From Amycolatopsis sp. cg9 (GTDB lineage Bacteria; Actinomycetota; Actinomycetes; Mycobacteriales; Pseudonocardiaceae), in NCBI RefSeq assembly GCF_041346945.1, contig NZ_CP166850.1:8664501-8728500 (forward strand): a DNA stretch of 64,000 bases, written 5' to 3'. Of the stretch, positions 18,365 through 46,728 are shown piece after piece; position 1 is the stretch's first letter; every line of letters starts with the position of its first letter. Made by a program: the position numbers and the translations under genes. The notes under the pieces were generated by a model. That model was not told the DNA's origin and made no database searches. It saw nothing but the letters and a program-made list of their open reading frames with translations.

Positions 18365-19402
18365 TCACGGCGTGGTGAAGTCGAGCAGCACCTTCGACGC
18401 CACGGTCCGGTCGCCGGCGGTCCCGAAGGCCGTGAGCGCCTCCGCCAGCGGGAAGCGGTGGGTCACCACCGGGTCCACCGGCAGGCCGCCGGCCAGCAGG
18501 GACAGGGCGTCGTCGAACTCGGTGTCGAAGCGGAACGCACCCTTCAGCACGATCTCGCGGGTCACCACGACGTTGCCGGGGAAGCCCGTCTCGCCCGGCG
18601 GGAGCAGGCCGAGCAGGACGACCGTGCCGCCGCGGCGGACGCGCGCGACGCACGTCGCGAGCCCGGCCGGGGCGCCGGACGCTTCGATCGCCACGTCGAC
18701 GTCCGCCGGCCACGCCGGGTCGTCCGGGCGGCCGGCCCGCACCGTCGAGGTCGCGCCGACCAGTTCGGCCACCTTCAGCGGTTCGGGGAGCAGGTCGCTC
18801 ACGACGACCTCCACCGCGCCCGCGTGCCGCAGCACCGCCACGACCAGGCAGCCGATCGGCCCGGCGCCGGTGACCAGGACCCGCTTGCCCTGGACGTCGC
18901 CGGCGCGGCGCACCGCGTGCACCGCCACCGACAGCGGCTCGGCCAGCACCGCCCGGTCGAGCGCCAGCCCGGGCGGGAGCACGCGGACCTGGGCGGCCGG
19001 GACCACCAGCCGCCGCGTGAATCCGCCCTCGACGTGCGGGAAGTGCGCCGCGCTGCCGAGGTAGCGGGACCGCGCGCAGACGTTGCGCCGGCCCTCGCGG
19101 CATTCGCGGCACTCGTCGCAGGGCGTCGCCGGGTGGATCGCCACCGGAACGCCGGTTGCGGGGCCGGGCACCCCGGCACCCAGCGCCGCGACGTGGCCGG
19201 CCACCTCGTGCCCGAGCACCATCGGCTCCCGCACGGTGAAGTCACCGACCGCGCCGCGGTGGTAGTAGTGCAGGTCGGAGCCGCAGATGCCGCCGTAGGC
19301 GACCGCGATCTCGACCTCGCCGGGGCCGGGGCCGGCCGGGTCGCGCTCCTCCACCCGCAGGTCGCCCGCTCCGTGCACGACGCACGCTCGTCCAGCAGTC
19401 AT
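18365..19402 (-). CDS. Zinc-dependent alcohol dehydrogenase, L-idonate 5-dehydrogenase-like
   Basis: A 345-residue medium-chain dehydrogenase. The catalytic zinc site is seen as GGICGSDLHYY and MVLGHEVAG; the four structural-zinc cysteines are in CDECRECREGRRNVC. The Rossmann motif is VTGAGPIGCLVV. The pattern GGICGSDLHYYHRGAVGDF is typical of L-idonate 5-dehydrogenase, which interconverts L-idonate and 5-ketogluconate. It is the third gene of a leftward operon after a 2-hydroxyacid dehydrogenase and a gluconate 5-dehydrogenase-like SDR. The true substrate may differ, because a shared promoter element links this operon with the pxp operon. Confidence 0.85.
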   Translation of the reverse strand: MTAGRACVVHGAGDLRVEERDPAGPGPGEVEIAVAYGGICGSDLHYYHRGAVGDFTVREPMVLGHEVAGHVAALGAGVPGPATGVPVAIHPATPCDECRECREGRRNVCARSRYLGSAAHFPHVEGGFTRRLVVPAAQVRVLPPGLALDRAVLAEPLSVAVHAVRRAGDVQGKRVLVTGAGPIGCLVVAVLRHAGAVEVVVSDLLPEPLKVAELVGATSTVRAGRPDDPAWPADVDVAIEASGAPAGLATCVARVRRGGTVVLLGLLPPGETGFPGNVVVTREIVLKGAFRFDTEFDDALSLLAGGLPVDPVVTHRFPLAEALTAFGTAGDRTVASKVLLDFTTP

Positions 19403-19412
19403 CGGATTCCTT

Positions 19413-20180
19413 TCACAGCACGGAAAGCATGCCGCCGTCGACGTACAGCAGCTGCCCGTTGACGAACGCGGACGCGTCGGAGGACAGGAAGATCAGCGCG
19501 CCGACGAGGTCCTCGACGCGCCCCCAGCGCCCGGCCGGGGTCCGGCCGCGCACCCAGGCGCTGAACTCCTCGTCGGCGACCAGCGCGGCCGTCAGCTCGG
19601 TCTCGAAGTAGCCGGGCGCCAGCCCGTTCACCTGGATCCCGGACGGCCCGAGGTCGGCGCACATCCCCTTGGTCAGCAGCTTCAGCCCGCCCTTGGTCGC
19701 CGCGTACGGCGCGATGCCGGGGCGAACGGTTTCGCTTTGCACCGAACAGATGTTGACGATCTTGCCGCGGCCGCGCGGCCCCATCCGGCGCGCCACCTCG
19801 CGGCCGACCAGGAACGCGCTGGTGAGGTTCGTGTCGAGCAGCCGGTACCAGTCCTCGTCGGAGAACTCGGTGAACGGCGCCCGGTGCTGGACCCCGGTGT
19901 TGTTCACCAGGATGTCCAGCGGCCCGGCCCGGTCCTCGGCGCGGGCGACGCCCGCGGCCACCGCGGCGGAGTCGGTGACGTCGAACGGCTCCGCGAACAC
20001 CGTGCCCAGGCCGGAAAGTTCCTTCTCCGCACACTCCAATGCGGACACGTCGCGGCCATTGAGGACGACCACGCAGCCGGCTTCCAGGAGCCCGCGGGCC
20101 AGCGCGAAGCCGATCCCCCGGCTGGAGCCGGTCACCAGCGCGACGCGGCCGGTGACGTCGAAGACCGGATGGCTCGTCAC
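19413..20180 (-). CDS. SDR oxidoreductase, gluconate 5-dehydrogenase-like
   Basis: A 255-residue short-chain dehydrogenase. The cofactor motif is VTGSSRGIGFALA, the structural motif NNTGV, and the catalytic Ser/Tyr/Lys are in NICSVQSE and YAATKGG. PAGRWGRVEDLVGALIFLSSDAS and the C-terminal VDGG are as in gluconate 5-dehydrogenase and related enzymes. The GTG start overlaps the stop of the upstream dehydrogenase (GTGA). With the following zinc dehydrogenase it resembles the idonate/ketogluconate interconversion pair, but specificity is inferred only. Confidence 0.86.
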   Translation of the reverse strand: MTSHPVFDVTGRVALVTGSSRGIGFALARGLLEAGCVVVLNGRDVSALECAEKELSGLGTVFAEPFDVTDSAAVAAGVARAEDRAGPLDILVNNTGVQHRAPFTEFSDEDWYRLLDTNLTSAFLVGREVARRMGPRGRGKIVNICSVQSETVRPGIAPYAATKGGLKLLTKGMCADLGPSGIQVNGLAPGYFETELTAALVADEEFSAWVRGRTPAGRWGRVEDLVGALIFLSSDASAFVNGQLLYVDGGMLSVL

Positions 20181-21133
20181 GCCGCCACCGCCTCGGGGAC
20201 CGGCGTGCGGGCCGGGCGGCCGGCCAGCACGTCCAGGACGTTGTCGACGGCCAGGTCGACCATCGCCGCCCGGGTCGCCTCGGTGGCCGACCCGACGTGC
20301 GGCACCGCGACCAGCCGGTCGGCGGCGATCAGGTCGGCGACGTCGGCGCCGCGGGGCTCGCGCTCGAAGACGTCGAGCCCGGCCGAGTGGATCACGCCGG
20401 TGCGCAGCGCGGCCAGCAGCGCGGCCTCGTCGACGACGCCGCCGCGGGAGGTGTTCACCAGGGTGGCCGTCGGTTTCATGGTCCGCAGCTCGCCCGCGCC
20501 GATGAGGTGCCGGGTGGCCGGGGTCAGCGGTACGTGCAGGGACACGACGTCGGACTCCGCCAACAGGACCGGGAGGCCGACGCCGTCCGGCGCGGCGGGG
20601 TCGTGGTGCAGCACACGCATGCCGAACCCGGCGGCGCGGCGGGCCATCGCGCGGCCGATCTGGCCGTAGCCGACCAGGCCGAGCGTCGCGCCGTGAACGT
20701 CCAGGCCGAGGTGGCCGTCCATCGCGAAGTGGGTCCACGCACCGGACAGCAGGCTGTCGCGGGCCGCGCCGAGCCGCCGGCGGGCCTGCAGGACGAGCGC
20801 GAACGCCAGGTCGGCGGTGGTCTCGGCGAGCACGCCCGGCGTGTGGGTGACGACGACGCCGCGCTCGCGGGCCGCGTCCCGGTCGACCGCGTCGTAGCCC
20901 ATGCTGGCCAGGCTCACCACGCGCAGCGCGGGGCCCGCGGCGTCGAGCAGAGCCGCGTCGACGGGGTCGTTGCCCAGGCACAGGATGCCGGCCACGCCGT
21001 GGGCGAGCCGGGCGAGGTCGCCCGGCTGCGGCCGGCCGGTGCCGGACCAGCGGACCAGCTCGGTGTGGTCGCCGAGCCGGCTCAGGCCGGTGCCGGGGAG
21101 ATCCCCCCGGGTGCTGAGCACGCGCTGCTTCAC
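20177..21133 (-). CDS. D-2-hydroxyacid dehydrogenase, 2-ketogluconate/glyoxylate reductase-like
   Basis: A 318-residue NAD(P)H-dependent reductase of 2-oxo acids. The Rossmann motif is LGLVGYGQIGRAMA; the catalytic Arg is in VNTSRGGVVDE, the Glu in LDVFEREP and the His in AVPHVGSAT. I chose the GTG with GAGGAG at proper spacing; a GTG six bases upstream is possible but the ribosome site would touch it. It is the first gene of the leftward three-dehydrogenase operon and lies directly behind the promoter carrying the shared 27-bp element. Candidate substrates are 2-ketogluconate, glyoxylate or hydroxypyruvate. Confidence 0.87.
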   Translation of the reverse strand: MKQRVLSTRGDLPGTGLSRLGDHTELVRWSGTGRPQPGDLARLAHGVAGILCLGNDPVDAALLDAAGPALRVVSLASMGYDAVDRDAARERGVVVTHTPGVLAETTADLAFALVLQARRRLGAARDSLLSGAWTHFAMDGHLGLDVHGATLGLVGYGQIGRAMARRAAGFGMRVLHHDPAAPDGVGLPVLLAESDVVSLHVPLTPATRHLIGAGELRTMKPTATLVNTSRGGVVDEAALLAALRTGVIHSAGLDVFEREPRGADVADLIAADRLVAVPHVGSATEATRAAMVDLAVDNVLDVLAGRPARTPVPEAVAA

Positions 21134-21167
21134 TTTCACTCCTCGGGCCGGAATCCGATCTCCCGAA

Positions 21168-21220
21168 AAGGTAGGCAGCGGCGCTCGGGAACCGCAAATA
21201 GCGATTCCCGGTGACGTGAT
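21168..21220 (-). promoter_or_regulatory. Shared 27-bp element and -10 of the dehydrogenase operon
   Basis: On the minus strand 21220-21194 begins ATCACGTCA and ends TATTTGC. It matches the element before pxpA in 22 of 27 positions. Twenty bases further downstream is a -10-like TACCTT (21173-21168). The position suits activation by the LysR protein encoded next door. Confidence 0.65.
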
Positions 21221-21229
21221 ACCGGCACC

Positions 21230-22126
21230 TTATCGATCCTCGAACCCGGTGATCAGTTCGTGGAAGAGGTCGTGCACGACCAGCGCGGGCTCCGACAGCG
21301 GCTGGTTCTCCGAAGTGCACAGCGACACCTGGACCCGGATCGCCGGGGCGATGCGCCGGACCACGAGGCCGCTGACGTCGAGGATCGCGCGGGCCGCCGA
21401 CCCCGGCAGCACCGTCGCGCCCAGGTCCGCCGTCACCGCGTTGACCAGCGTCAACGCCGACTCGATCTCGCCGGTCACGCGCGGGACCAGCCCGGCGTGC
21501 GCGAAGGCGGCGTCGACGACCTGGCGGATGGTGTGGATCCGGCTCGGCAGCAGCAGGTCGACCTCGGCGAGCTCCTCGACCGTGACCTCCCCGGCCGGCG
21601 TGCTGCCGCGGCCGGCGGAAATCAGCAGCAGGTCCTCGGTGCGCATCGGCTCGAACCGGACGCCGCGGATCGGGCCGGCGCCGTAGATGAACGCCATGTC
21701 CATCCGGCCGGTCATGATCGCCTCGCTGATCACGCCGCCGAAGTTTTCGTTGATGTGCAACACGATTTCGGGGTAGCGCTCCCGCACCGCGCGCAGCAGC
21801 GGGAGCGCGAGGGCGGCACCGGTGCTGTAGGGCGCGAGGCCGACCGAGACGCTGCCCGCCGGGGCGCGGCCGCCGATGTCCACCGCCGCGCGGGCCTGGT
21901 CGACCTGGCGCAGGATCAGCTGCGCGTGCCGGTAGAGCGCCCGGCCCGCTTCGGTCGGCACCACCCCGCTCTTGCTGCGGATGAGCAGCCGCTGCGCGAA
22001 CTCCGTCTCGAGCGTCGACACCTGCTGGCTCAGCGCGGGCTGCGCGATGTGCAGGATCGCCGCCGCGCGGGTGATGCTCCCCGCGTCGACGATCTTGACG
22101 AACGAGTACAGGCGCCTGGTGTCCAC
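21230..22126 (-). CDS. LysR-family regulator of the flanking catabolic operons
   Basis: A 298-residue LysR protein. The N-terminal winged helix is LYSFVKIVDAGSITRAAAILHIAQPALSQQVSTLE (in part), and a two-lobed ligand domain follows. I chose the GTG with GGGAGG upstream; the longer frame starts ten codons earlier without support. The gene lies between a leftward dehydrogenase operon and the rightward pxp operon. Because both promoters share a near-identical 27-bp element, this protein is the obvious candidate to control both. The inducer would then be a metabolite common to the two operons. Confidence 0.88.
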   Translation of the reverse strand: MDTRRLYSFVKIVDAGSITRAAAILHIAQPALSQQVSTLETEFAQRLLIRSKSGVVPTEAGRALYRHAQLILRQVDQARAAVDIGGRAPAGSVSVGLAPYSTGAALALPLLRAVRERYPEIVLHINENFGGVISEAIMTGRMDMAFIYGAGPIRGVRFEPMRTEDLLLISAGRGSTPAGEVTVEELAEVDLLLPSRIHTIRQVVDAAFAHAGLVPRVTGEIESALTLVNAVTADLGATVLPGSAARAILDVSGLVVRRIAPAIRVQVSLCTSENQPLSEPALVVHDLFHELITGFEDR

Positions 22127-22186
22127 AGTGTTCCTCCCGGTGCGAGCCGGGGCCATCGTACGGGGCCGGGGTCATAGCGAACCGCG

Positions 22187-22238
22187 ATCACGTCAGCCGG
22201 AACGGGTATTTGCCGCCCTCCTGACCTGGGATTACGGT
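22187..22238 (+). promoter_or_regulatory. Shared 27-bp element and -10 of the pxp operon
   Basis: 22187-22213 begins ATCACGTCA and ends TATTTGC, like the element in front of the opposite operon. A -10-like TACGGT lies at 22233-22238, 19 bp downstream. No good -35 is present, as usual for an activator-dependent promoter. Confidence 0.65.
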
Positions 22239-22311
22239 CACCGAAACGCGTTCCGCCCCACGGCCCGAACAGCTCCCGGCCGGTGTTCCCCCGTGTTCTA
22301 CGGAGGCTTTC

Positions 22312-23073
22312 ATGACCGCGAAAATCGATCTCGTCGCCGATCTCGGCGAAGGGTTCGGCGCCTACACCCTCGGTGACGACGAGGCGCTGCTCGACGTCGT
22401 CAGCTCCGCCAACGTCGCCTGCGGCTTCCACGCCGGCGATCCGTCCACCATGGACACGACGGTCCGCCGGTGCGTGGCCCGCGGGGTCGGGATCGGCGCG
22501 CACCCGGGCTTCCCGGACCTGGCCGGGTTCGGCCGCCGCGCGATGGACCTGACCGCGGACGAGGTGCGCACCGCCGTGCTCTACCAGGTCGGCGCGCTGC
22601 GGGCGTTCGCCGCCGCGCACGGCACCCGGGTCGCCCACGTCGCGCCGCACGGGAAGCTCGGCAACCTGGTGGCGGTCCGCCCGGACTACGCGGCCGCCGT
22701 CACCGACGCCGCAGCCGCCCTCGACCCGGACCTGATCGTGCTGGCCCAGGACGGCGAACTGGCCGACGCGGCCCGCGCACGCGGGCTGCGGGTGGCGATC
22801 GTCGGGATCGCGGACCGCGCCTACCGCGACGACGGGACGCTCGTACCCCGCGGCGAACCGGGCGCGGTGCTGCACGACCCGGCGGAGATCGCCGGGCGCG
22901 CGGTCCGGCTGGTCACCGAAGGAGTGCTGGAAACCGTCGGCGGCGGGGACCTGGCCGTCGCCTGCGACACCGTCCTGCTGCACGGCGACACGCCCGGCTC
23001 GGTCGCCGTCGCGCGCCGGGTCCGGGCCGAGCTGCGCGCCGCCGGCGTCACGATCGAAACCCTGCGGGGCTGA
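22312..23073 (+). CDS. pxpA: LamB/YcsF family protein, 5-oxoprolinase subunit A-like
   Basis: A 253-residue protein of the family that forms the ATP-dependent 5-oxoprolinase PxpABC, which opens pyroglutamate to glutamate. Family motifs are present: DLGEGFG, SANVACGFHAGDP, GAHPGFPDLAGFGRR, and a C-terminal LLHGDTPGSV. The active-site stretch that normally reads VKPHGALYN is here VAPHGKLGN (about 110-118), so the conserved Lys, Ala and Tyr are replaced. That change, and the aldolase and aminotransferase genes downstream, suggest a modified oxoproline as substrate. The ATG follows GGAGG. First gene of a seven-gene operon. Confidence 0.88.
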   Translation: MTAKIDLVADLGEGFGAYTLGDDEALLDVVSSANVACGFHAGDPSTMDTTVRRCVARGVGIGAHPGFPDLAGFGRRAMDLTADEVRTAVLYQVGALRAFAAAHGTRVAHVAPHGKLGNLVAVRPDYAAAVTDAAAALDPDLIVLAQDGELADAARARGLRVAIVGIADRAYRDDGTLVPRGEPGAVLHDPAEIAGRAVRLVTEGVLETVGGGDLAVACDTVLLHGDTPGSVAVARRVRAELRAAGVTIETLRG

Positions 23074-23074
23074 C

Positions 23075-23773
23075 GTGGACCTGCGCATCCGCGACGCGGG
23101 CGACTCCGCCGTCATGGTGACGGCGCTCCGCGGCGACGAAGAGCACCGCTGGCAGCGGGTGCACGCGCTGGCCGACGCCCTCGAAGCCGCCCGCGTCGAC
23201 GGCGTCCACGGCCTGGTCCCCACCTACGACACCCTGCTCGTCGAATTCGACTGCGTCCGCGTCGGGCACGCCGTCGTCCGGCGGGCCGTCGAACAGGCCG
23301 CGGGTGCGGCGCGAGTGCGGCGGACCGAACCCGCGCGCTTCGTCGTCCCGGTCGTCTACGGCGGCGAACACGGGCCCGACCTGCCGCTGGTCGCCGAGCA
23401 GCTCGGGCTGTCCGAGCGGGAGGTCGTCGACGCGCACAGCGGTGAAGACCTCGTCGTCCGCTGCCTCGGCGCGCCGGTCGGGGCGCCCATGACCGACGGT
23501 CCCGCGTTCGGGAAACCCGTGCCCCGCCTGGCTTCGCCGCGCACGAGCGTGCCGGCCGGCTCTGTCGCGGTCGCCGGGCGCCAGGCCGTGGTGTGCCCGC
23601 TGCCCTCCCCCGGTGGCTGGCCGCTGCTGGGCCGCACCCCGCTGCGGGTGCTGGACCTCGGGGCCGAGCGCCTCACCACGTACCGCCCCGGCGACCGGTT
23701 CCGGTTCGTCCCGATCGACGCCGCCGAGTGGTCCGCGCACGCCGGCCGGCCGCTGGAGGCCGCCGATGCCTGA
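23075..23773 (+). CDS. pxpB: 5-oxoprolinase subunit B-like (KipI family)
   Basis: A 232-residue protein of the carboxyltransferase subdomain C/D family (KipI, allophanate hydrolase subunit 1). Motifs include GLVPTYDTLLVEFD, FVVPVVYGGEHGPDL, and the glycine-rich LGAPVGAPMTDG, with the C-terminal GGWPLLGRTPLRVLD and RPGDRFRFVPID. It pairs with PxpC to bind ATP and phosphorylate the oxoproline. It starts with GTG one base after the pxpA stop and overlaps the pxpC start, so the three subunits are coupled. Confidence 0.9.
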   Translation: MDLRIRDAGDSAVMVTALRGDEEHRWQRVHALADALEAARVDGVHGLVPTYDTLLVEFDCVRVGHAVVRRAVEQAAGAARVRRTEPARFVVPVVYGGEHGPDLPLVAEQLGLSEREVVDAHSGEDLVVRCLGAPVGAPMTDGPAFGKPVPRLASPRTSVPAGSVAVAGRQAVVCPLPSPGGWPLLGRTPLRVLDLGAERLTTYRPGDRFRFVPIDAAEWSAHAGRPLEAADA

Positions 23774-24749
23774 CACCCTCACCGTGACGCGGGCGGGCCA
23801 CGCCGTCGTCCAGGACCTCGGCCGATTCGGCCGGTCGCGGTCCGGGCTGCCGGTCAACGGCGCCCTCGACCAGTACTCCGCCCGCGTGGCCAACGTGCTG
23901 GCCGGGAACGCCGAGAACGCGCCGCTGGTCGAGCTCACCGCGCTCGGCTTCGGCTGCACCCCGTCGGCCGACGTGCTCGTGGCCGTCACCGGCGCGCCCG
24001 CCGAAGTGCTCGTCGACCGTGCCCGCCGCCCGCAGTGGGAACCGGTCACCGTCCACGCCGGACAGACCATCCGGATCGACGGCATCCGCGACGGCCTGCG
24101 CGTCTACCTCGCCGTGCACGGGGCCGTCACCGCGGACTACCTGCTCGGCAGCTGCGCCCCGGACACGATCCTGGGGTTCGGCCGCCGGCTGCGCGAGGGC
24201 GACGAACTCGCCCTCCCCACCCGGCTCCCGCCGCTGGAGCACCCCGTGTTCCGGCACCCGGTGTTCCGCCTGCGCCCGCCGGTGCCGCGGTTCGGCGGGC
24301 CGTGGACCGTCGACGTCACCGACGGCCCCGACGCCGCCGAGTTCGGCGCCGGCGCCGAGCGGCTCTACACGGAGCCGTTCGCCGTCACCGCCCGCAGCAA
24401 CCACGTCGGCCTGCGGCTCAGCGGCCGGGTACCGCGCCGGGAAGCCACCGGCGAGGTCCTCTCCCGCGGCGTCCCGGTCGGCGCGGTCGAGGTGCCGGCC
24501 GGCGACGAGCTGCTGGTCCTGCACCGCGGCCACGGTGTCACCGCCGGCTACCCCGTGCTCGCCGTCGTCACCACGACCGGCCTGTGCGCGCTCGGCCAGG
24601 CCCGCCCCGGGCAGACCGTCCGGTTCCGGCGGCGCACGGTCGAAGACGCCGTCTCCGCCCGCGTCGCCCAGCACCACACCATCCGGGCACTCCACCGACG
24701 GGTGTCCACAGTGTTCGACGCCCTCCGCATCCCCGTGCCCGCCCACTGA
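23766..24749 (+). CDS. pxpC: 5-oxoprolinase subunit C-like (biotin-dependent carboxyltransferase family)
   Basis: A 327-residue protein of the KipA/carboxyltransferase A/B family, partner of PxpB. The N-terminal QDLGRFGRSRSGLPVNGALDQYS and the internal LYLAVHG-like segment VYLAVHGAVTADYLLGS are characteristic, as are SNHVGLRLSG and the C-terminal GQARPGQTVRF. The ATG overlaps the last codons of pxpB by eight bases. Length is normal and nothing is missing. It completes the PxpABC set; the substrate is judged by context, as described for subunit A. Confidence 0.9.
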   Translation: MPDTLTVTRAGHAVVQDLGRFGRSRSGLPVNGALDQYSARVANVLAGNAENAPLVELTALGFGCTPSADVLVAVTGAPAEVLVDRARRPQWEPVTVHAGQTIRIDGIRDGLRVYLAVHGAVTADYLLGSCAPDTILGFGRRLREGDELALPTRLPPLEHPVFRHPVFRLRPPVPRFGGPWTVDVTDGPDAAEFGAGAERLYTEPFAVTARSNHVGLRLSGRVPRREATGEVLSRGVPVGAVEVPAGDELLVLHRGHGVTAGYPVLAVVTTTGLCALGQARPGQTVRFRRRTVEDAVSARVAQHHTIRALHRRVSTVFDALRIPVPAH

Positions 24750-24756
24750 GGAGACC

Positions 24757-26068
24757 ATGATGAGTACCGTGGCCGCACAACCCGATTCACCCGTCGTCGA
24801 CGCCAAGGCCGCGCGCCGCATCACCGCGGCCGGCTGCGTCGGCATCTTCGCCGAGCTCTACGACAACGGCATCTTCGGCTTCATGGCCGCCACGCTGGCC
24901 ACGGTGTTCTTCCCGGACTCGCAGAACGCCGTGCTGCTGGTGTTCGTCGGGTACGCCATTTCGTTCTTCTTCCGGCCGCTCGGCGGCATCATCTGCGGTC
25001 AGCTCGGCGACCGCATCGGCCGGCAGCGCATGCTGGTCTTCGTCATCCTGCTGATCAGCGTGGCCACCGCGGCCATCGGCATCCTGCCCAGCTACGCCGC
25101 GATCGGCGTGGCCGCGCCGATCCTGTTGCTCCTGCTGCGGATCCTGCAGGGCTTCTCGGTCGGCGGCGAGGCCGCGGGCGCGATGACGTTCCTCGCCGAG
25201 CACGCCCCCGAGGGCAAGCGCGGGCTGTACACGAGCTTCGCCCAGATCGCGTCGTTCCTCTCGCTGCTGACCGGCACGCTGATCGCCGCGGCGATGACCA
25301 GCGGCCTCGGCGCGCAGCGGATGCACGACTTCGGCTGGCGCATCCCGTTCCTGCTGGCCGTGCCGCTGGGCATCACCGGGCTCTACATCCGGCGCCGGAT
25401 CAGCGACACCCCGCGCTTCACGAAGCTGAAGGAAGCGGGCGGGCTGTCGGCCAACCCGATCAAGGAAGCGTTCTCCACGCCGCAGCACCGGCGCGCGATG
25501 CTGCTCGCCCTGTTCATCCCGCTGATGAACGGCTCCGGCTACTACGTCCTGTTCACCTTCATGCCGACCTTCATGAGCAAGAACCTGAAGTTCGACACCG
25601 TTTCCGGGCTGCTGGTCACCGCGTCGAGCCTGGTCGCCATCTCCGTCGCCATTCCCTTCATGGGCAAGCTTTCCGACCGCGTGGGGCGCAAGAACGTCCT
25701 GCTCGGCGCCGCGGCCGCGATGATCGTCGCCGGGATCCCGTGCTACGCGCTGATCGCCACCGGCTCGGTCGGGCTCGCGGTCCTCGGCGCGTGCGTGATG
25801 GCCGTGATCTTCGCCGGCCACACCGGGGTCATCCACATCCTGCTGGTCGAGCTGTTCCCCACCCGCGTCCGCTACTCCGCCTACGGCCTGGGCTACAACG
25901 TCTCCTCCGCGCTGTTCGGCGGCACCGCTCCGCTGCTGATGACCTACCTCATCGCCGAGACACAACGTCTACGTGCCCGCGTTCTACGCCGTGCTCACCG
26001 CGCTCGGCACGCTCATCGCCGTGTCGCGGGTGCGGGACCGCGCGCACGTCCCGCTGCGCGACGCCTGA
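24757..26068 (+). pseudogene. MFS transporter (metabolite:H+ symporter type), frameshifted near the 3' end
   Basis: About 435 residues if repaired. The protein has the MHS-family look: LYDNGIFGFMAATLATVFFPD, the loop GQLGDRIGRQRML, LRILQGFSVGGEAAGAMTFLAEHAPEGKRG, and LSDRVGRKNV. Members import dicarboxylates, betaines or shikimate. After codon 401 the frame shifts near 25960 (one base extra or two missing): the next frame reads HNVYVPAFYAVLTALG, the expected last helix, and stops at 26066. As given, the frame instead continues without a stop into the SDR gene. This is either a real mutation that removes the last helix or a sequence error. The ATG pair follows GAGGAGA. Confidence 0.8.
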
Positions 26069-26103
26069 TCCCCGTCCGTCCCCGAGAGTTCTGGAGATTC
26101 CCC

Positions 26104-26850
26104 ATGCCCTTTTCCGACTACGCCACCGCGCTCGTCACCGGCGCCTCGACCGGGATCGGCGCGACGGTCGTCGAACGCCTGGCCAAACAAGGCCTGGTCG
26201 TCCACGCCGTCGCACGGGACGGCGAGCGGCTGGCCGAACTGGCCGAGCGCACCGGCTGCATCCCGCACGCGCTGGACCTCACCGACACCGCCGCGCTGAC
26301 CGAGCTGACCCGCGGCCTGGAGATCGACGTGCTGGTGAACAACGCCGGGGTGTCGCGGACCGGGAACATCCTTACCGTGGACGAATTCGGCGTCGACGAG
26401 CTCGTCGCGGTCAACGTCCGCGCGGTGCTGCACCTGGTGCGGCTGCTGATGCCCGGCATGGTCGAGCGCGACCGCGGGCACATCGTCAACATCAGCTCGA
26501 TCGCCGGCGTCTACAACTTCGGCGGCAACACCGTTTACCACGCGACGAAGGCGGCGGTGCACACCCTTTCCCGCCAGCTGCGGGTGGACGGCTTCGGCAA
26601 GCGCGTGCGCGTCACCGAGATCTGCCCGGGCCGCGTCGAGACCGAGATCTTCGGGCGGCTGATCGGCGACATGGAAGCCGCGCAGCGCGAGTTCTACGAC
26701 GGCTACGAATCCCTCAAGCCCGAGGACATCGCCGACGCCATCGAGTTCGCCGTCGACTCGCCGCGGCACGTCAACATCGGCCACATCGAGATCCTGCCGA
26801 CGTTCCAGGTGCCGGGCGGGCTGGACTTCGAGCGCCGGAGCGACGCGTGA
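26104..26850 (+). CDS. SDR oxidoreductase
   Basis: A 248-residue short-chain dehydrogenase: cofactor motif VTGASTGIGATV, NNAGVS, catalytic Ser in NISSIAGVYN and Tyr/Lys in YHATKAAVH. The C-terminal VDSPRHVNIGHIEILPT is typical of the YdfG/serine-type 3-hydroxy acid dehydrogenase branch, so a hydroxy acid or hydroxy amino acid is a reasonable substrate. It is the fifth gene of the pxp operon. Because of the upstream frameshift it lies in frame with the transporter, but its own ATG with GGAG upstream can serve as start. Its stop overlaps the next start (GTGA). Confidence 0.87.
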   Translation: MPFSDYATALVTGASTGIGATVVERLAKQGLVVHAVARDGERLAELAERTGCIPHALDLTDTAALTELTRGLEIDVLVNNAGVSRTGNILTVDEFGVDELVAVNVRAVLHLVRLLMPGMVERDRGHIVNISSIAGVYNFGGNTVYHATKAAVHTLSRQLRVDGFGKRVRVTEICPGRVETEIFGRLIGDMEAAQREFYDGYESLKPEDIADAIEFAVDSPRHVNIGHIEILPTFQVPGGLDFERRSDA

Positions 26851-28058
26851 GCCTCGCCCAGCGCGTCACGCGCATCCAGCCCTCGCCCAGCACCGCGGCC
26901 GCGCAACGGGTCCGGGAGCTGCGCACCGGCGGCGTGCGGATCGTCGACCTGACGGTCGGCGAACCGGACTTCGACACCCCCGAGCACGTGAAAACCGCGG
27001 CGGTGGCGGCGATCCGGCGCGGCGACACCAAGTACACGCCGGTCAACGGCGTCCCGGAACTGCGGCAGGCGATCGCCGCGAAGCTGGCCCGGCGGCACGG
27101 CCTGGCGATCCCCGAAGCCGACATCGCCGTCGGCGGCGGTGCGAAGCAGGTCATCTTCCTCGCGCTGATGGCCACCCTGGACCGCGGCGACGAGGTGATC
27201 GTCCCGGCACCGCACTGGGTGTCCTACCCGGACATGGTGCTGGCCAACGACGGCACGCCCGTCGTCGTCCCCTGTCCCGCCGGGCGGGGGTTCAAGCTCA
27301 CGGCCGCGGCCCTGCGCGCCGCCGTCACCCCGCGGACGCGCTGGCTGGTCCTCAACAGCCCGGGCAACCCGACCGGCGCGAGCTACACCCCCGCCGAGCT
27401 GCGGGAGCTGGCCGGCGTGCTCTCGGACCACCCGCACGTGCGGGTGCTGACCGACGAGATCTACGACGAGATCCGCTACGAACCCGGCCCGCCCACGACG
27501 CTCACCCAGGTGGCGCCGGAGCTGGCCGACCGCGTCCTGCTCACGAACGGCGTCTCGAAGACGTACGCGATGACGGGCTGGCGGATCGGCTGGGGCGCCG
27601 GCGCGCCCGACGTCGTCGCGGCGATCAACAAGCTGCAGTCCCAGATTTCGTCGTGCCCGTCGTCGATCTCCCAGGCCGCGGCCGTTGCGGCGCTGACCGG
27701 CCCGCAGGACTTCGTCGAGGAGACGGTCGCGGCCTACCGCGCCCGGCGAGACCGGACGGTGAAGCTGATCGACGAGGTCCCGCTGCTCTCGTGCACGCCA
27801 CCCGACGGCGGGTTCTACCTGTTCGCCAGCTGCGCCCGCGCCTTCGGCCATCGCACGCCGGGCGGTACGACGATCCGCACCGACGCGGACTTCGCGCGCT
27901 ACCTGCTCGAAGCGGAACAGGTGGCCGTGATCCACGGCGAGGCGTACGGATCCCCCGGCTACTTCCGCGTTTCCTTCGCCACTTCCGACGACGTGCTCGC
28001 CGAAGCGTGCACCCGCATCGCGCGCGCCTGCGCCGCCCTCACCCCGGAGCCGTCATGA
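26847..28058 (+). CDS. PLP-dependent aminotransferase, class I (aspartate aminotransferase-like)
   Basis: A 403-residue fold-type I aminotransferase of the 1A (aspartate aminotransferase) subgroup. Visible motifs: DLTVGEPDFDTPEHV, GGGAKQVIF, NSPGNPTGASYT, the Tyr in TDEIYDEI, the PLP lysine in SKTYAMTGWRIGW, and the C-terminal Arg in YFRVSFATS. It would move the amino group from an acidic amino acid, such as glutamate or a substituted glutamate released by PxpABC, to a 2-oxo acid. The GTG start overlaps the SDR stop and the stop overlaps the aldolase start, so it belongs firmly to the operon. Confidence 0.9.
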   Translation: MSLAQRVTRIQPSPSTAAAQRVRELRTGGVRIVDLTVGEPDFDTPEHVKTAAVAAIRRGDTKYTPVNGVPELRQAIAAKLARRHGLAIPEADIAVGGGAKQVIFLALMATLDRGDEVIVPAPHWVSYPDMVLANDGTPVVVPCPAGRGFKLTAAALRAAVTPRTRWLVLNSPGNPTGASYTPAELRELAGVLSDHPHVRVLTDEIYDEIRYEPGPPTTLTQVAPELADRVLLTNGVSKTYAMTGWRIGWGAGAPDVVAAINKLQSQISSCPSSISQAAAVAALTGPQDFVEETVAAYRARRDRTVKLIDEVPLLSCTPPDGGFYLFASCARAFGHRTPGGTTIRTDADFARYLLEAEQVAVIHGEAYGSPGYFRVSFATSDDVLAEACTRIARACAALTPEPS

Positions 28059-28714
28059 CCGACTTCACCCGTCCCGAGCCCGGCCTGGTCGAGGAGCTGG
28101 GCCGGTACTCGGCCGCCACGATCCACGAAGCGCAGGGCCGCCGCGGCGCGCTGACCTCCTCGATCAAGCCGGTGGACCACCGGATGTCGCTGTGCGGCCC
28201 GGCGTTCACCGTGCGCTGCGCGCCGCGCGACAACCTGATGCTGCAGGTGGCGATCTCCCGCGCCCGGCCGGGCGACGTCATCGTGGTCTCCGCCGGGGAG
28301 TACGCCGAGGCCGGCTCGTTCGGCGACGTGCTCGCCAACGCCTGCCTCGCCAAGGGGATCGCCGGCCTCGTCACCGACACCGGCGTCCGGGACACGGCCG
28401 AGCTGCGGAAGCTCGGGCTCCCGGTGTTCTCCCACAGCGTGTCGATCAAGGGCACGGTCAAGGAGACGGTGTCCCCGCCGGCCGAGCCGGTCCTGATCGG
28501 CGGCGAGCTGGTCCGCCCCGGCGACGTGGTCCGCGGCGACGCCGACGGGGTCGTCGTGGTCCGGCAGGAGGAACTCGCCGACGTGATCGAGGCGTCCCGG
28601 GCCCGCGAGGTGGCCGAAGCCGGGTACATCGCGGCGTACCGCGCCGGGAAGTCGGTGATCGAGGTCAGCGGCCTCGCCCCGGTGCTGGCCGCGAAGGGCC
28701 TGGCCGTCGACTAG
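28055..28714 (+). CDS. RraA-family aldolase (4-hydroxy-4-methyl-2-oxoglutarate / CHA aldolase-like)
   Basis: A 219-residue member of the RraA/HMG-aldolase family, class II metal-dependent enzymes that cleave 4-hydroxy-2-oxo acids to pyruvate or decarboxylate oxaloacetate. The signature SFGDVLANACLAKGIAGLVTDTGVRD holds the conserved Arg-Asp pair, and GDVVRGDADGVVVV follows. The retained Arg and Asp argue for an enzyme rather than an RNase-E inhibitor. It is last in the pxp operon, downstream of the aminotransferase, so a 2-oxo acid made there could be its substrate. Confidence 0.88.
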   Translation: MTDFTRPEPGLVEELGRYSAATIHEAQGRRGALTSSIKPVDHRMSLCGPAFTVRCAPRDNLMLQVAISRARPGDVIVVSAGEYAEAGSFGDVLANACLAKGIAGLVTDTGVRDTAELRKLGLPVFSHSVSIKGTVKETVSPPAEPVLIGGELVRPGDVVRGDADGVVVVRQEELADVIEASRAREVAEAGYIAAYRAGKSVIEVSGLAPVLAAKGLAVD

Positions 28715-42596: not shown

Positions 42597-42812
42597 ATGG
42601 CGCGAGTCACCGCGAACGACAATCACGAACCGCGGCGGAGATTCGGGCGGATCCGGCATTTCCTGCGTCGCCGGGGCCGCCCGCTGACCGGGCTCGAGGC
42701 GTTCAACCTGATCGAACTGAAACGCGGCGCCGATCCGATGCGCTGGCATTCCCGGCACGGCGTCTGGCCGGCCGACCGGCAGTCCTCGGGGACACCGGGC
42801 CGTCAGCCTTAG
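42597..42812 (+). CDS. Small basic protein of unknown function
   Basis: A 71-residue Arg-rich protein (RRRFGRIRHFLRRRGRPLTG) with a short hydrophobic stretch (LEAFNLIELKRG) and no signal peptide. The ATG is well supported by CGGAGGGGA seven bases upstream. The frame extends further upstream but without coding character. Not recognised. It overlaps the end of the DUF4387 gene by four bases, tail to tail. Confidence 0.5.
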   Translation: MARVTANDNHEPRRRFGRIRHFLRRRGRPLTGLEAFNLIELKRGADPMRWHSRHGVWPADRQSSGTPGRQP

Positions 42813-43123
42813 CGCACGGCCATCCTCGCCAGTGGCACGTGGTGCTGCCCCGCGTGCGTGTCCCGGTCCCGCAGCGAACCCTGGCTCACCGGGCGCGGGA
42901 ACGAAATCTTCACGACGTTCAACGACGGGATCCGGAAGATCCGGATCGTCGCTTCGTCGACCCGGTACAGCGCCGCCACCACGCGCTCGTTCAGGAAATC
43001 TTCGTCCGCCGCCAAGCGGTAGCCGTCGGCGTCGCGCAGGAACAGTTCCAGCGTCACCCAGAACGGGCCGGCGTTCTTCGACCGGACCTCGTGGGCCAGG
43101 TCCGCCAAGGTTTTGTCAGGCAC
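42809..43123 (-). CDS. DUF4387 protein
   Basis: A 104-residue protein matching DUF4387: LADLAHEVRSKNAGPFWVTLELFL at the start, a central LNERVVAALYRVDE, and the C-terminal VVKISFPRPVSQGSLRDRDTHAGQHHVPL. Proteins of this family are nearly always encoded beside, or fused to, AtuA-like DUF1446 proteins, as here; the biochemical role is unknown. It overlaps the end of the AtuA gene by eight bases and is last in a four-gene operon. Confidence 0.87.
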   Translation of the reverse strand: MPDKTLADLAHEVRSKNAGPFWVTLELFLRDADGYRLAADEDFLNERVVAALYRVDEATIRIFRIPSLNVVKISFPRPVSQGSLRDRDTHAGQHHVPLARMAVR

Positions 43124-44489
43124 GGGTCGTCCCCTCGAACTCGATCCGGAACAGGTCCAGCGGCGCGCAGTCCACGACGTGGTTCAGCACGAACTCGTAC
43201 GCCGCCCCGCGCTCGACCTCCGCCGGGGAGGACGGGAACGCGAAGCTCGGCAGGTAGCCCATCGAAGGCGTCGGCAGGTGCAGCATCAGCGGGTTGGCCA
43301 CCTTCGCCACGGCCGTCGCGGTGGCCTGGTCGGGCGCGTTGACCAGCAGCATCACGCCGACCTCGCGCGGCGGCCCGCTCTCCGGTTCCAGCTCGCCCAG
43401 CACCGCGTTGTGGCCGTACAGCCGCAGGTCGAACGCGTACTCGCCGGCGGCGAGGCCCAGCGTCTGGCCCACCCGCCGGGTGATCAACGTGCGCATCAGC
43501 TCGGCCCACTCGTCGATGTCGGCCAGCACCAGCGGGTCGCGGATCGCCGAGAACGACATCGTCTCGTACCCGGTGATCCGCGCGCCCTCCAGCTTGATCG
43601 TGTACTGGTCGGCGACGTGGAACTTCGACCCGGTGACGCGGACGATCCGGTCGTCGACGGCCGTGTACTCCGCCTCGCGGACGTCGAGCGTGCCGTCGGG
43701 TTCGCGCATCTCGAACGGGTCCGCCGTCTCGTACAGCATGTGCGCGGCGACCAGGATCGGCGTGCACGCCGCACCCGGGTCGAGCGGCTCGATCGTGAAG
43801 CCGTCCGCGTCGATGGTCGCCAGGACGCCGCCCGCGCGCGGGTTGTCGGTGCACTGGCCGCCGCACTCGACGATCTTGGCCGCGTGCCACGTCGGGCCGG
43901 CCGGCATGCCCCGCATCAGCGGGTACGCGGCCGCCACCGCGGTGTCGGTCGCGCGGCCCGCCAGCACCACCTGCGCCCCCGCGCGCAGCGCCTCGACGAT
44001 CGGTTCGTGGCCCATCGCGCCGACGACGTGCGTGCAGCTCTCCAGGGTTTCCGCGGCCAGTTCTCCCAGCGGGGGCAACGGGTGCACGCGGCCCGCGCCG
44101 AGGTGCTCCTTCAGCTCGGCCGCGTCCTGCTCGCTGTAGATCTTCGCGACCTTCAGGTCCAGGCCCTCCTCCGCGAGCACCTCGGCGGCGATCCCGGCGA
44201 CCCAGTCGACGCCGGTGTCGGTCCCGCTCGTCCCGCACGAGCCCACGATCACCGGGATCCCGGCGCCCGCGGCGGCCGTGAACAGGCTGCGCAGGTCGCG
44301 TGCCACGGCCTTGGCGGTCGTCTTGGCCGTCGCGGCACCGAGGTAGTACGGGCCCGAGTCCGTCGACCCGCCGTCGATGCTGATGACGTCGGCGCCCAGT
44401 GCGATGCCGCGTTCGACCGTCGCGTGGTCCCAGCCGGCGCCGAGCATCCCGCTCGGTGCCAGCACGCGCACTTCGTCCATGTTCCTCAT
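43116..44489 (-). CDS. AtuA-family protein (DUF1446)
   Basis: A 457-residue member of the AtuA family, named for acyclic terpene utilisation in Pseudomonas. It shows VRVLAPSGMLGAGWDHATVERGI, ISIDGGSTDSGPYYLG, VIVGSCGTSGTD and VLAGRATDTAVAAAYPLMRG, all typical. The enzymatic reaction is not established; the neighbourhoods of this family point to oxo/hydroxy acid catabolism. The ATG overlaps the stop of the dehydrogenase gene (ATGA); a second ATG three codons later is also possible. It is probably co-functional with DUF4387. Confidence 0.87.
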   Translation of the reverse strand: MRNMDEVRVLAPSGMLGAGWDHATVERGIALGADVISIDGGSTDSGPYYLGAATAKTTAKAVARDLRSLFTAAAGAGIPVIVGSCGTSGTDTGVDWVAGIAAEVLAEEGLDLKVAKIYSEQDAAELKEHLGAGRVHPLPPLGELAAETLESCTHVVGAMGHEPIVEALRAGAQVVLAGRATDTAVAAAYPLMRGMPAGPTWHAAKIVECGGQCTDNPRAGGVLATIDADGFTIEPLDPGAACTPILVAAHMLYETADPFEMREPDGTLDVREAEYTAVDDRIVRVTGSKFHVADQYTIKLEGARITGYETMSFSAIRDPLVLADIDEWAELMRTLITRRVGQTLGLAAGEYAFDLRLYGHNAVLGELEPESGPPREVGVMLLVNAPDQATATAVAKVANPLMLHLPTPSMGYLPSFAFPSSPAEVERGAAYEFVLNHVVDCAPLDLFRIEFEGTTRA

Positions 44490-45424
44490 TCCGCTCCGTT
44501 CACGATGTGCCGGCCCCGGCCGTCCAGGGCCGCGACTAGTTCTTCGGCACCGCGCAGGCCCGCGGCCCGGCGCGCTTCGGCGGTCTGCCCGGCCAGGTGC
44601 GAGCAGACGACGATCCCGGCCACCCCGCGCAACGGACTGCCCGCGGGCAACGGCTCTTCACGCACGACGTCGAGCACCGCGCCCGCGATCTCGCCGGAGC
44701 ACACGGCTTCGGCGAGCGCGTCCTCGTCGACGATCGCTCCCCGGGCCGTGTTGACCAGGAGCGCGGTCGGCTTCATCCGCTTGAAGGCCGCGGCGTCCAG
44801 GAGCCCGCGGGTGCGCTCGGTGAGCGACGTGTGCACCGAGACGTAGTCCGAAGTGGACAGCAGCTCGGGCAGCCCGGCGAACCGGACGTCCGGGCCGCGC
44901 AGGTTCGACGTGCAGACGACGGTCATCCCGAACGCGCGCGCCAGCGGCACGACCGCCCGCGCGGAAGCGCCGTACCCGATGAGCCCGAGGGTCGACCCGC
45001 GCAGTTCGTGCCCGTCCTCGCGCGGCCACTCCCCGCGTGCTACCCCGGACGCCGACTGCACGAGCCGCCGCGCCCCGGCGAGCAAAAGTCCCATGGTGTA
45101 CTCGGCGACGGCGTTGGCGTTGACGCCGGGCAGATTGCTGACGCTGATCCCCCGGCGGGCGGCGGCTTCGACGTCGATGGAGTCGTAGCCGACGCCGGTC
45201 CGCACGATGACGCGCAGCTTCGGCGCGCGGGCCAGCACGCCCGCCGTCAGCGGCTCGTTGGCCACCAGCGCCGCGTCGATCCCGTCGAGCGCCTCGACCA
45301 GCTGCTCGGGGTCGCGCTTGCCGGCCATCGGCGCGTACACGGTTTCCAGCCCGGCGGCGCGCAGGTACTCGTCCACCTCGTCGCCGGGGCGCAGGTAGTC
45401 GGTGGTGACCAGGACCCGGCTCAC
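44486..45424 (-). CDS. D-2-hydroxyacid dehydrogenase
   Basis: A 312-residue NAD-dependent 2-hydroxyacid dehydrogenase. The cofactor motif is LGLIGYGASARAVV, with Ala-Ser where the last Gly pair usually sits; the catalytic Arg is in VNTARGAIVDE, the Glu in VVREEPLP and the His in CSHLAGQTA. The N-terminal IVRTGVGYDSIDVEAA matches the phosphoglycerate-dehydrogenase-like branch. The GTG start overlaps the transporter stop (GTGA). It likely interconverts a 2-oxo and 2-hydroxy acid in the pathway served by the transporter and AtuA protein. Confidence 0.88.
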   Translation of the reverse strand: MSRVLVTTDYLRPGDEVDEYLRAAGLETVYAPMAGKRDPEQLVEALDGIDAALVANEPLTAGVLARAPKLRVIVRTGVGYDSIDVEAAARRGISVSNLPGVNANAVAEYTMGLLLAGARRLVQSASGVARGEWPREDGHELRGSTLGLIGYGASARAVVPLARAFGMTVVCTSNLRGPDVRFAGLPELLSTSDYVSVHTSLTERTRGLLDAAAFKRMKPTALLVNTARGAIVDEDALAEAVCSGEIAGAVLDVVREEPLPAGSPLRGVAGIVVCSHLAGQTAEARRAAGLRGAEELVAALDGRGRHIVNGAE

Positions 45425-46689: not shown

Positions 46690-46728
46690 CGTCGGCACCT
46701 TCCCTTGGACATGGCGGCCACCGTACTT

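Follow-up and report, generated by a model that had tools for sequence, protein, structure and literature searches.

The window analysed here, a stretch of 64,000 nucleotides from the 10.6 Mb genome of the actinobacterium Amycolatopsis sp. cg9 (contig NZ_CP166850.1), holds two divergent operons that look like an apparently undescribed pathway assembled from known enzyme families. A sequence-only reading of the window had pointed to the oxoprolinase subunits PxpA, PxpB and PxpC, an importer, a short-chain dehydrogenase/reductase (SDR), an aminotransferase (AT) and an RraA-like aldolase, and all of these were recovered at 22312-28714 with Pfam/NCBIfam support, lying head to tail on the + strand as PxpA-PxpB-PxpC-MFS-SDR1-AT-RraA and separated by 1-35 bp or overlapping. 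The functional unit exceeds that interval and includes the adjoining divergent operon on the - strand (18365-22156), which runs LysR (Nac-like)-HADH-SDR2-IdnD, where HADH is a D-2-hydroxyacid dehydrogenase, SDR2 a gluconate 5-dehydrogenase-like SDR and IdnD an L-idonate 5-dehydrogenase-like protein. We consider it slightly more probable than its opposite (about 0.55) that the lactamase, AT and RraA form a single route with a 2-keto-hexonate as product, and the substrate is possibly a plant amino acid derived from vitamin C.

The predicted substrate, reactions and order of steps are as follows. Under one Nac-like LysR regulator, the operons would serve the catabolism of a 4-hydroxypyroglutamate bearing a C4 polyol at position 4. 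This would be imported by the MFS protein, and its ketone in the beta position to the carboxyl group would be the target of reduction by SDR1, which is of the 3-hydroxy-acid dehydrogenase type. PxpABC would open the lactam at the expense of ATP to give 4-hydroxy-4-(tetrahydroxybutyl)glutamate, AT would convert this to 4-hydroxy-4-(tetrahydroxybutyl)-2-oxoglutarate, and RraA would split the latter into pyruvate and 2-keto-L-gulonate. HADH would then form L-idonate, IdnD 5-keto-D-gluconate and SDR2 D-gluconate, which a gluconokinase (GntK), encoded in the cluster or elsewhere, would phosphorylate to 6-phosphogluconate. What we observed directly is the gene content, its conservation and its co-occurrence.

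The core is conserved in two phyla

A search with an alignment of four RraA proteins against one genome per GTDB species gave 77 loci, and neighbours were counted over at most 10 kb on each side of RraA using fixed identity and coverage thresholds. AT was found at 72 of these loci, SDR1 at 64, PxpC at 60, PxpB and LysR at 59 each, PxpA and MFS at 57 each, IdnD at 42, HADH at 38 and SDR2 at 31, with GntK at 6 and 6-phosphogluconate dehydrogenase (Gnd) at 3. Many of the missing neighbours reflect short contigs or flank ends, as in Streptomyces himastatinicus (L081), where PxpABC-AT-MFS lies directly upstream and is visible in L149. PxpA, AT and SDR1 occurred together at 56/77 loci, joined at 47/77 by at least one of HADH, IdnD and SDR2, while three loci from Bacteroidota (L089, L092, L093) hold distant RraA relatives without the gene set and two others (L039, L095) are remnant-like. 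As a control, none of five loci (four genomes) around RraA paralogs of 41-46% identity carried a cluster gene at the same thresholds, and two of them contained a 26% match to the IdnD superfamily. The RraA neighbourhood is not due to chance. The idea of unrelated neighbouring operons, prompted by the layout in one genome of the window's genus (G001), was weakened by the same 77 loci.

Actinobacterial carriers include Streptomyces, Nonomuraea, Saccharopolyspora, Amycolatopsis, Rhodococcus, Nocardia, Microbacterium and Sinomonas, the RraA search also returned the alphaproteobacteria Devosia, Flavimaricola, Roseivivax, Poseidonocella and Albidovulum, and plasmid records with the cluster come from Rhizobium, Sinorhizobium, Bradyrhizobium, Paracoccus, Terrarubrum, Agrobacterium vitis and Arthrobacter. 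The core is a conserved pathway in soil, marine and root bacteria, with a gene order that differs across the two phyla. In Microbacterium (L075) a single run reads PxpABC-SDR1-RraA-AT-HADH-SDR2-IdnD-GntK-Gnd, Sinorhizobium BG8 has every one of these enzyme types within ~21 kb, and in Rhodococcus and some Amycolatopsis IdnD sits inside the Pxp-RraA run. SDR1 relatives in the clusters are 58-88% identical. The cluster is also sporadic, since a phylum-wide search, in which few candidates were scored per genome, found the core SDR1 in 1/396 genomes, the window's own.

Three minor observations concern individual loci. A genus mate (G026) has an RraA of 88% identity (L011:9426-10288) with only a C-terminal AT remnant, beside a rhamnosidase gene, and represents a decayed cluster. 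A contig labelled as a cyanobacterial metagenome-assembled genome (Kaiparowitsia, L045) carries a cluster closest to that of Devosia and is probably contamination. Near core clusters, two genes encoding 394 and 544 aa (L100:15746-16930 and L052:17854-19488) had no Pfam match at E 0.001.

Sugar-acid genes accompany the core

The window contains a D-2-hydroxyacid dehydrogenase, an L-idonate 5-dehydrogenase-like protein and a gluconate 5-dehydrogenase-like SDR, which by family would match the series 2-keto-L-gulonate to L-idonate to 5-ketogluconate to gluconate. Similar enzymes are described for the D-glucuronate pathway of Aspergillus niger, where the 2-keto-L-gulonate reductase GluC belongs, like HADH, to the D-2-hydroxyacid dehydrogenases (PMC4870679), GluE is an L-idonate 5-dehydrogenase (PMC5306355) and GluF is an SDR 5-ketogluconate reductase (PMC5814732). 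HADH and SDR2 thus mirror GluC and GluF by family and IdnD mirrors GluE by predicted activity, whereas the fungal 2-keto-L-gulonate is thought to come from L-gulonate and that of the window is predicted to come from aldol cleavage. Bacterial L-idonate (idn-like) operons share IdnD, SDR2 and GntK, as in the GntK-GntP-SDR2-IdnD run of S. himastatinicus (L127), where the GntP permease lies between GntK and SDR2; the window cluster differs in adding HADH and in tying the module to a lactam/aminotransferase/aldolase pathway. The gluconokinase of L075 (TIGR01313, 185 vs 114 bits) is followed by 6-phosphogluconate dehydrogenase.

Co-occurrence was assessed in 392 Streptomyces genomes with SDR1 (the core marker) and SDR2 called at E <= 1e-100, few candidates being scored per genome. 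Two genomes of this set, G618 and G674, share their match coordinates with those named GESEQ-35 and S. himastatinicus. SDR1 was present in 19 and SDR2 in 107, and SDR2 was found in all 19 SDR1-positive genomes against 88/373 SDR1-negative ones (Fisher 5.5e-12). At most ~8 kb separated the two genes in 4 of these 19 genomes; in 8 they were more than 500 kb apart on the same contig, and in 7 they were on different contigs, where linkage is possible. Restricted to the cases that were not adjacent, SDR2 was still present in 15/15 core-positive genomes (1.0e-9). From 15 loci lacking HADH, IdnD and SDR2 nearby we took 8, and in 8/8 of these genomes (at least four of them apparently also among the 392) SDR2 and IdnD were found within ~2 kb of each other, elsewhere in the genome in 6, just beyond the flank in G500 and beside another core cluster in G503. 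Twelve SDR2 regions, from seven of these eight genomes and five of the 15 unlinked ones, had IdnD in 12/12 and GntK nearby in 10/12. In the window's genus, SDR1 occurred in 5/80 genomes and SDR2 in 10/80, with an overlap of 4/5, all linked (p 6e-4).

The dehydrogenases were assigned to the pathway because they share operons with the core in several lineages and because SDR2 marks all core-positive Streptomyces, and this in turn makes a C4 polyol a more likely side group than H or CH3. Starting from 2-keto-L-gulonate gave the only simple path that we found in which HADH, IdnD and SDR2 are each used once. As 2-keto-L-gulonate is a 2-oxo acid, and hence of the product type of aldolases acting on 4-hydroxy-4-methyl-2-oxoglutarate (HMG) and 4-carboxy-4-hydroxy-2-oxoadipate (CHA), we infer backwards from it a C9 2-oxo acid, the corresponding amino acid and its pyroglutamate lactam.

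Several observations weigh against joining the two halves in this way. IdnD, SDR2, SDR1 and HADH all fall under the NCBIfam equivalog cut-offs, IdnD scoring 303 bits for L-idonate 5-dehydrogenase (cut-off 469) and SDR2 347 bits for PRK07523 and, second best, 296 bits for gluconate 5-dehydrogenase (cut-off 408), both below cut-off, and the nearest PDB entries of HADH are mostly glyoxylate reductases, a probable 2-ketogluconate reductase (9m0t) being third. The Fisher values overstate independence, because the core-positive Streptomyces are large (median 10.9 Mb) and related, and within the window's genus the core-positive G001 has no SDR2 match at the cut-off, the other four being linked. In Sinorhizobium meliloti GR4, HADH-IdnD-SDR2 and a GntK-like stretch follow directly on RraA, which is a point in favour, and the absence of Pxp and AT within 15 kb is a point against. 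Conversely, within the stretches examined no HADH-IdnD-SDR2 lies near the core in Rhizobium etli p42c, R. lentis, Bradyrhizobium, Terrarubrum, A. vitis or Arthrobacter StoSoilB13, RraA being distant in the Bradyrhizobium (32%) and Terrarubrum (51%) loci. A second type of locus (L013, L072, L076, L078, L080-L084, L086) carries extra SDRs beside RraA, and our reading does not account for two further genes of L013, L072 and L086, one for a xylose-isomerase-like TIM barrel and one 3-hydroxyisobutyrate-dehydrogenase-like; in L013 and L072 the Pxp-AT-MFS block adjoins RraA, SDRs and IdnD.

The same data bear on the possibility that the operons encode two separate, co-regulated routes, one for a lactam amino acid (Pxp and AT) and one for 2-/5-ketogluconate or idonate (HADH, IdnD and SDR2), with RraA acting as an oxaloacetate decarboxylase that drains an aspartate/glutamate transaminase. 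HMG/CHA aldolases also show oxaloacetate decarboxylase activity (PMC5065237) and AT belongs to the aspartate transaminase family, while in G001 a divergent LysR separates the run of RraA and the dehydrogenases from that of Pxp, AT and MFS, and S. meliloti 1021 has HADH-IdnD-SDR2-GntK with no Pxp, AT or RraA in a 19-kb stretch. Against this, some genomes have RraA together with Pxp/AT/SDR1 and others have it together with HADH/IdnD/SDR2, the pattern that a linking enzyme should show, and the dependency in Streptomyces runs one way, SDR2 occurring without the core marker in 88 genomes and the core without SDR2 in 0/19. We regard two separate routes as improbable, although still to be taken seriously.

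RraA retains the catalytic residues of HMG/CHA aldolases

The window RraA passes PRK09262 (CHA aldolase/oxaloacetate decarboxylase; 210 vs 179 bits), fails the narrower TIGR02798 (180 vs 304.5 bits), and aligns without gaps to the HMG/CHA aldolase of Pseudomonas putida F1 (3NOJ), residues 5-216 matching 16-227. Its Arg-Asp pair, described as intact in the sequence-only reading, is R112/D113 and corresponds to R123/D124 of 3NOJ, whose numbering is used below; all of the catalytic and metal residues R123, D124, E199, K147, N71 and T145 are present. One sequence at 52-57% identity was placed neither in the cluster group nor among the more distant homologs, and matches shorter than ~190 residues were left out. 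Across the resulting cluster group of 86 RraA sequences (82 of 87 distinct, a few genes having been retrieved twice), equivalents of R123, D124, E199, K147, T145, R40 and R195 were found in 86/86, D102 in 85/86 and N71 in 84/86. His75 is replaced by Gln in 86/86, and is His in 13/15 (12 distinct) more distant homologs. A change of specificity at this position is plausible but not shown, because His75 sits in the pocket, yet the P. putida H75A variant has little effect on HMG turnover (PMC5065237), a further point against our reading.

The products of HMG/CHA aldolases are pyruvate and a 2-oxo acid, and the active site of these enzymes has been described as large relative to the substrate (PMC5065237). 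The P. putida enzyme shares with the window RraA its family, its catalytic residues and the predicted pyruvate plus 2-oxo acid chemistry. It differs in setting, the enzyme of protocatechuate/gallate 4,5-cleavage having His75 where the window protein has Gln and the window cluster being without an aromatic-pathway gene, and in its second product, which is pyruvate or oxaloacetate as against the predicted 2-keto-L-gulonate. Because RraA keeps the catalytic residues of this family, the logic leading from lactam to amino acid to 2-oxo acid to aldol cleavage stands.

Lactam opening, transamination and pyruvate-type aldol cleavage had been proposed together in the sequence-only reading, and the recurrence of the core in two phyla and of parallel HyuAB clusters (see below) bears this part out. 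The substrates offered as examples, 4-hydroxy- and 4-hydroxy-4-methyl-pyroglutamate, are probably wrong. With so small a side group, opening, transamination and cleavage would give pyruvate plus glyoxylate or a second pyruvate, with the dehydrogenases as peripheral genes; the enzyme logic would be the same, membership of RraA in the HMG/CHA aldolase family would fit, and several rhizobial core clusters are indeed without idonate genes nearby. This would nevertheless leave SDR1, HADH, IdnD and SDR2 without a task in spite of the shared operons and the Streptomyces association described above, and the uniform change at the His75 pocket position also speaks against it, the mild effect of H75A on HMG turnover notwithstanding, so that we judge a small side group to be rather unlikely.

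The lactamase is a divergent PxpABC

The three PxpABC-type subunits (LamB_YcsF, CT_C_D and CT_A_B) are present together. PxpA scores 300 bits for LamB_YcsF and 326 bits for the NCBIfam PxpA subfamily (cut-off 226), and PxpB and PxpC fall under their equivalog cut-offs (124 vs 145.55 and 153 vs 500 bits). The same genome has a second PxpABC, in an operon that begins with GntR, MFS and D-glutamate cyclase. This operon contains neither an aminotransferase nor an aldolase and looks like ordinary 5-oxoproline use, and the two PxpA proteins are 52% identical. In a tree of 68 PxpA, which includes one housekeeping sequence only, on a long branch, the 52 copies from actinobacterial clusters fall into one 100/99 clade that excludes the genome's second copy, and 15 alphaproteobacterial copies form another group. 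The PxpA of one genus mate (G023) has the same sequence as the A. echigonensis protein.

The canonical PxpA motif KPHG[AM]LY is present in 4 PDB chains and in L110, L139, L141, L142, L146, L147 and L148; L145 is canonical at the Lys and Tyr sites, and L143 and L144 keep Lys with Gly or Ser for Tyr. The window PxpA reads APHGKLGN instead, with APHG[RK]LG in 53/53 actinobacterial cluster PxpA (51 distinct) and, in 15/15 alphaproteobacterial ones (14 distinct), loss of Lys and Gly at the Tyr site. This motif may set specificity or substrate size. Given the separate 5-oxoproline operon of this genome and the absence of the canonical Lys/Tyr motif from the cluster PxpA, plain 5-oxoproline is an unlikely substrate, and the cluster lactamase is better predicted to be a specialist. 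At most alphaproteobacterial loci PxpB/PxpC/PxpA are accompanied by biotin carboxylase and biotin-carrier proteins (clusters L038, L052-L055, L065, L100, L101, L104, L106-L108), and this version is possibly biotin-dependent.

In Corynebacterium glutamicum, growth on 5-oxoproline requires pxpTABC, an operon that includes neither an aminotransferase nor an aldolase (PMC13274462). The PxpTABC systems of C. glutamicum and Bacillus subtilis share with the window a three-subunit lactamase, a dedicated transporter and a regulator, and differ in being without aminotransferase, aldolase and dehydrogenase and in having an NRAMP-family (APC superfamily) transporter and a GntR regulator, where the window has MFS, LysR and the changed PxpA motif (PMC13274462). 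Ordinary 5-oxoproline use, in which PxpABC would form glutamate and AT 2-oxoglutarate with the remaining genes as accidental neighbours, agrees with PxpABC family membership but was rejected as very improbable on the separate PxpABC operon and the conservation of the neighbourhood across two phyla, with the altered motif of 68/68 cluster copies and the C. glutamicum gene content also against it.

Parallel clusters and transport

Three rhizobial plasmids (Agrobacterium/Rhizobium, L097-L099) carry AT-nac-HyuA-HyuB-SDR-aldolase (e.g., L098:12001-19703), with the same enzyme roles, an AT 59-62% identical to that of the window and a Nac-like regulator. They differ in their unrelated oxoprolinase (HyuA/HyuB) and aldolase families, the L098 aldolase being of the HpcH/HpaI family, and in an SDR only 30-32% identical to SDR1. 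Two Streptomyces genomes (L138/G498 and L140/G497) have PxpABC-MFS-SDR-AT-RraA in which AT (33-34%) and RraA (31-34%) are remote, the SDR is 61-62% identical to the rhizobial type and the PxpA motif is APHGRMG(S). From these parallel clusters it follows that lactamase, transaminase and pyruvate-type aldolase go together in several versions.

At the alphaproteobacterial locus L053, a TRAP binding protein has as its closest PDB entries 2pfy/2pfz, which we take to be DctP7 and DctP6 of Bordetella pertussis. Complexes of DctP7/DctP6 with 5-oxoproline are reported (PMC13274462) and two such B. pertussis receptors are described in a review (PMC5812351); the L053 receptor is a hint only, because its similarity to 2pfy/2pfz is moderate. 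Amino-acid-type ABC transporters are no longer taken to prove that the substrate is an amino acid, because S. meliloti 1021 carries such a transporter next to its HADH-IdnD-SDR2-GntK genes, where the stretch shows no Pxp, AT or RraA.

Candidate substrate

As the best natural candidate we tentatively propose ascorbalamic acid or its lactam form. Ascorbalamic acid is a C-C adduct of vitamin C and dehydroalanine that occurs in plants. It was reportedly the subject of a 1973 report. The formula, C9H13NO8 (PMC3976912), equals ascorbate plus dehydroalanine by arithmetic. If its former C3 ketone were reduced to give the L-gulo configuration, retro-aldol cleavage would release precisely 2-keto-L-gulonate. 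Judged on the genes alone, other 2-keto-hexonate adducts are equally good candidates. A shade less likely still, and doubtful as a whole, is the fuller picture of ascorbalamic acid degradation by a specialised oxoprolinase, transamination and an RraA split, the 2-keto-L-gulonate being passed on as L-idonate and gluconate, with at least three lactamase types (PxpABC, biotin-carboxylase PxpABC and HyuAB) recruited to routes of this kind. Amadori/opine-type conjugates (deoxyfructosyl-oxoproline) were set aside, as they need no pyruvate aldolase.

Literature searches for the combined pathway gave nothing relevant among the matches listed; those for oxoprolinase with CHA/HMG compounds gave nothing relevant, the word "oxoprolinase" being in none of the matches listed, and those for ascorbate-dehydroalanine adducts gave nothing relevant. 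Among the listed matches naming ascorbalamic acid, none had bacterial breakdown as its topic, judging by the title and the start of the abstract.

If correct, the proposed pathway would be a catabolic route joining amino-acid lactam chemistry to sugar-acid metabolism. It would provide a function outside aromatic catabolism for the RraA-like genes annotated "CHA aldolase/oxaloacetate decarboxylase", as well as for the divergent PxpABC lineage and the alphaproteobacterial biotin-carboxylase version, and would name a concrete substrate class; were the substrate ascorbalamic acid, it would also describe a soil or rhizosphere fate for a plant ascorbate derivative. The annotations 5-oxoprolinase, aspartate transaminase and CHA aldolase are probably misleading in the context of this cluster.

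Features of the locus

AT reaches the equivalog level of PRK06107, its aspartate specificity being putative. In this assembly the MFS gene is shifted by one base near 25957-25966, which places its final segment, with the last transmembrane stretch, in another frame, and its reading frame continues into SDR1; intact relatives of 435 aa are found at L012 and L068, and the frameshift may be either an assembly error or a real loss. In the LysR-PxpA intergenic region, a conserved block, CATA-N9-[GT]AT ... TATT[TG]G (20 of 34 extracted regions aligned), would suit a LysR operator that acts on both operons, and presumably resembles the Nac site. The individual features are given in Table 1.

Table 1 Predicted features of the two divergent operons (window coordinates).
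Feature	Position	Strand	Support
IdnD, zinc alcohol dehydrogenase, L-idonate 5-dehydrogenase-like	18365..19402	-	Best NCBIfam L-idonate 5-dehydrogenase; relatives in same clusters
SDR2, gluconate 5-dehydrogenase (IdnO)-like SDR	19413..20180	-	PRK07523 and gluconate 5-dehydrogenase profiles
HADH, D-2-hydroxyacid dehydrogenase, predicted 2-keto-L-gulonate reductase	20177..21139	-	Pfam 2-Hacid_dh
LysR-type regulator, Nac-like	21230..22156	-	NCBIfam Nac equivalog, 349 bits (cut-off 309)
Divergent promoter region, putative operator of both operons	22157..22311	.	Conserved block in intergenic alignment
PxpA-like lactamase subunit, divergent paralog	22312..23073	+	LamB_YcsF; APHGKLGN replaces KPHGALYN
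PxpB-like subunit	23075..23773	+	CT_C_D, 168 bits (Pfam)
PxpC-like subunit	23766..24749	+	CT_A_B, 212 bits (Pfam)
MFS metabolite:H+ symporter-like, predicted importer	24757..26068	+	TIGR00883, 344 bits, below cut-off 443
SDR1, YdfG-type 3-hydroxy-acid dehydrogenase-like SDR	26104..26850	+	YdfG best NCBIfam, 153 bits (cut-off 411); PDB 3asu
AT, class I aminotransferase, PRK06107 aspartate transaminase family	26847..28058	+	628 bits (cut-off 617); PDB 6f77/6f35
RraA-like class II pyruvate aldolase (HMG/CHA aldolase family)	28055..28714	+	PRK09262, 210 bits (cut-off 179)

Elsewhere in the window, a run on the - strand (42809-46698) comprises DUF4387, an AtuA-like gene, a second D-2-hydroxyacid dehydrogenase and an MFS gene, and is apparently another catabolic operon.

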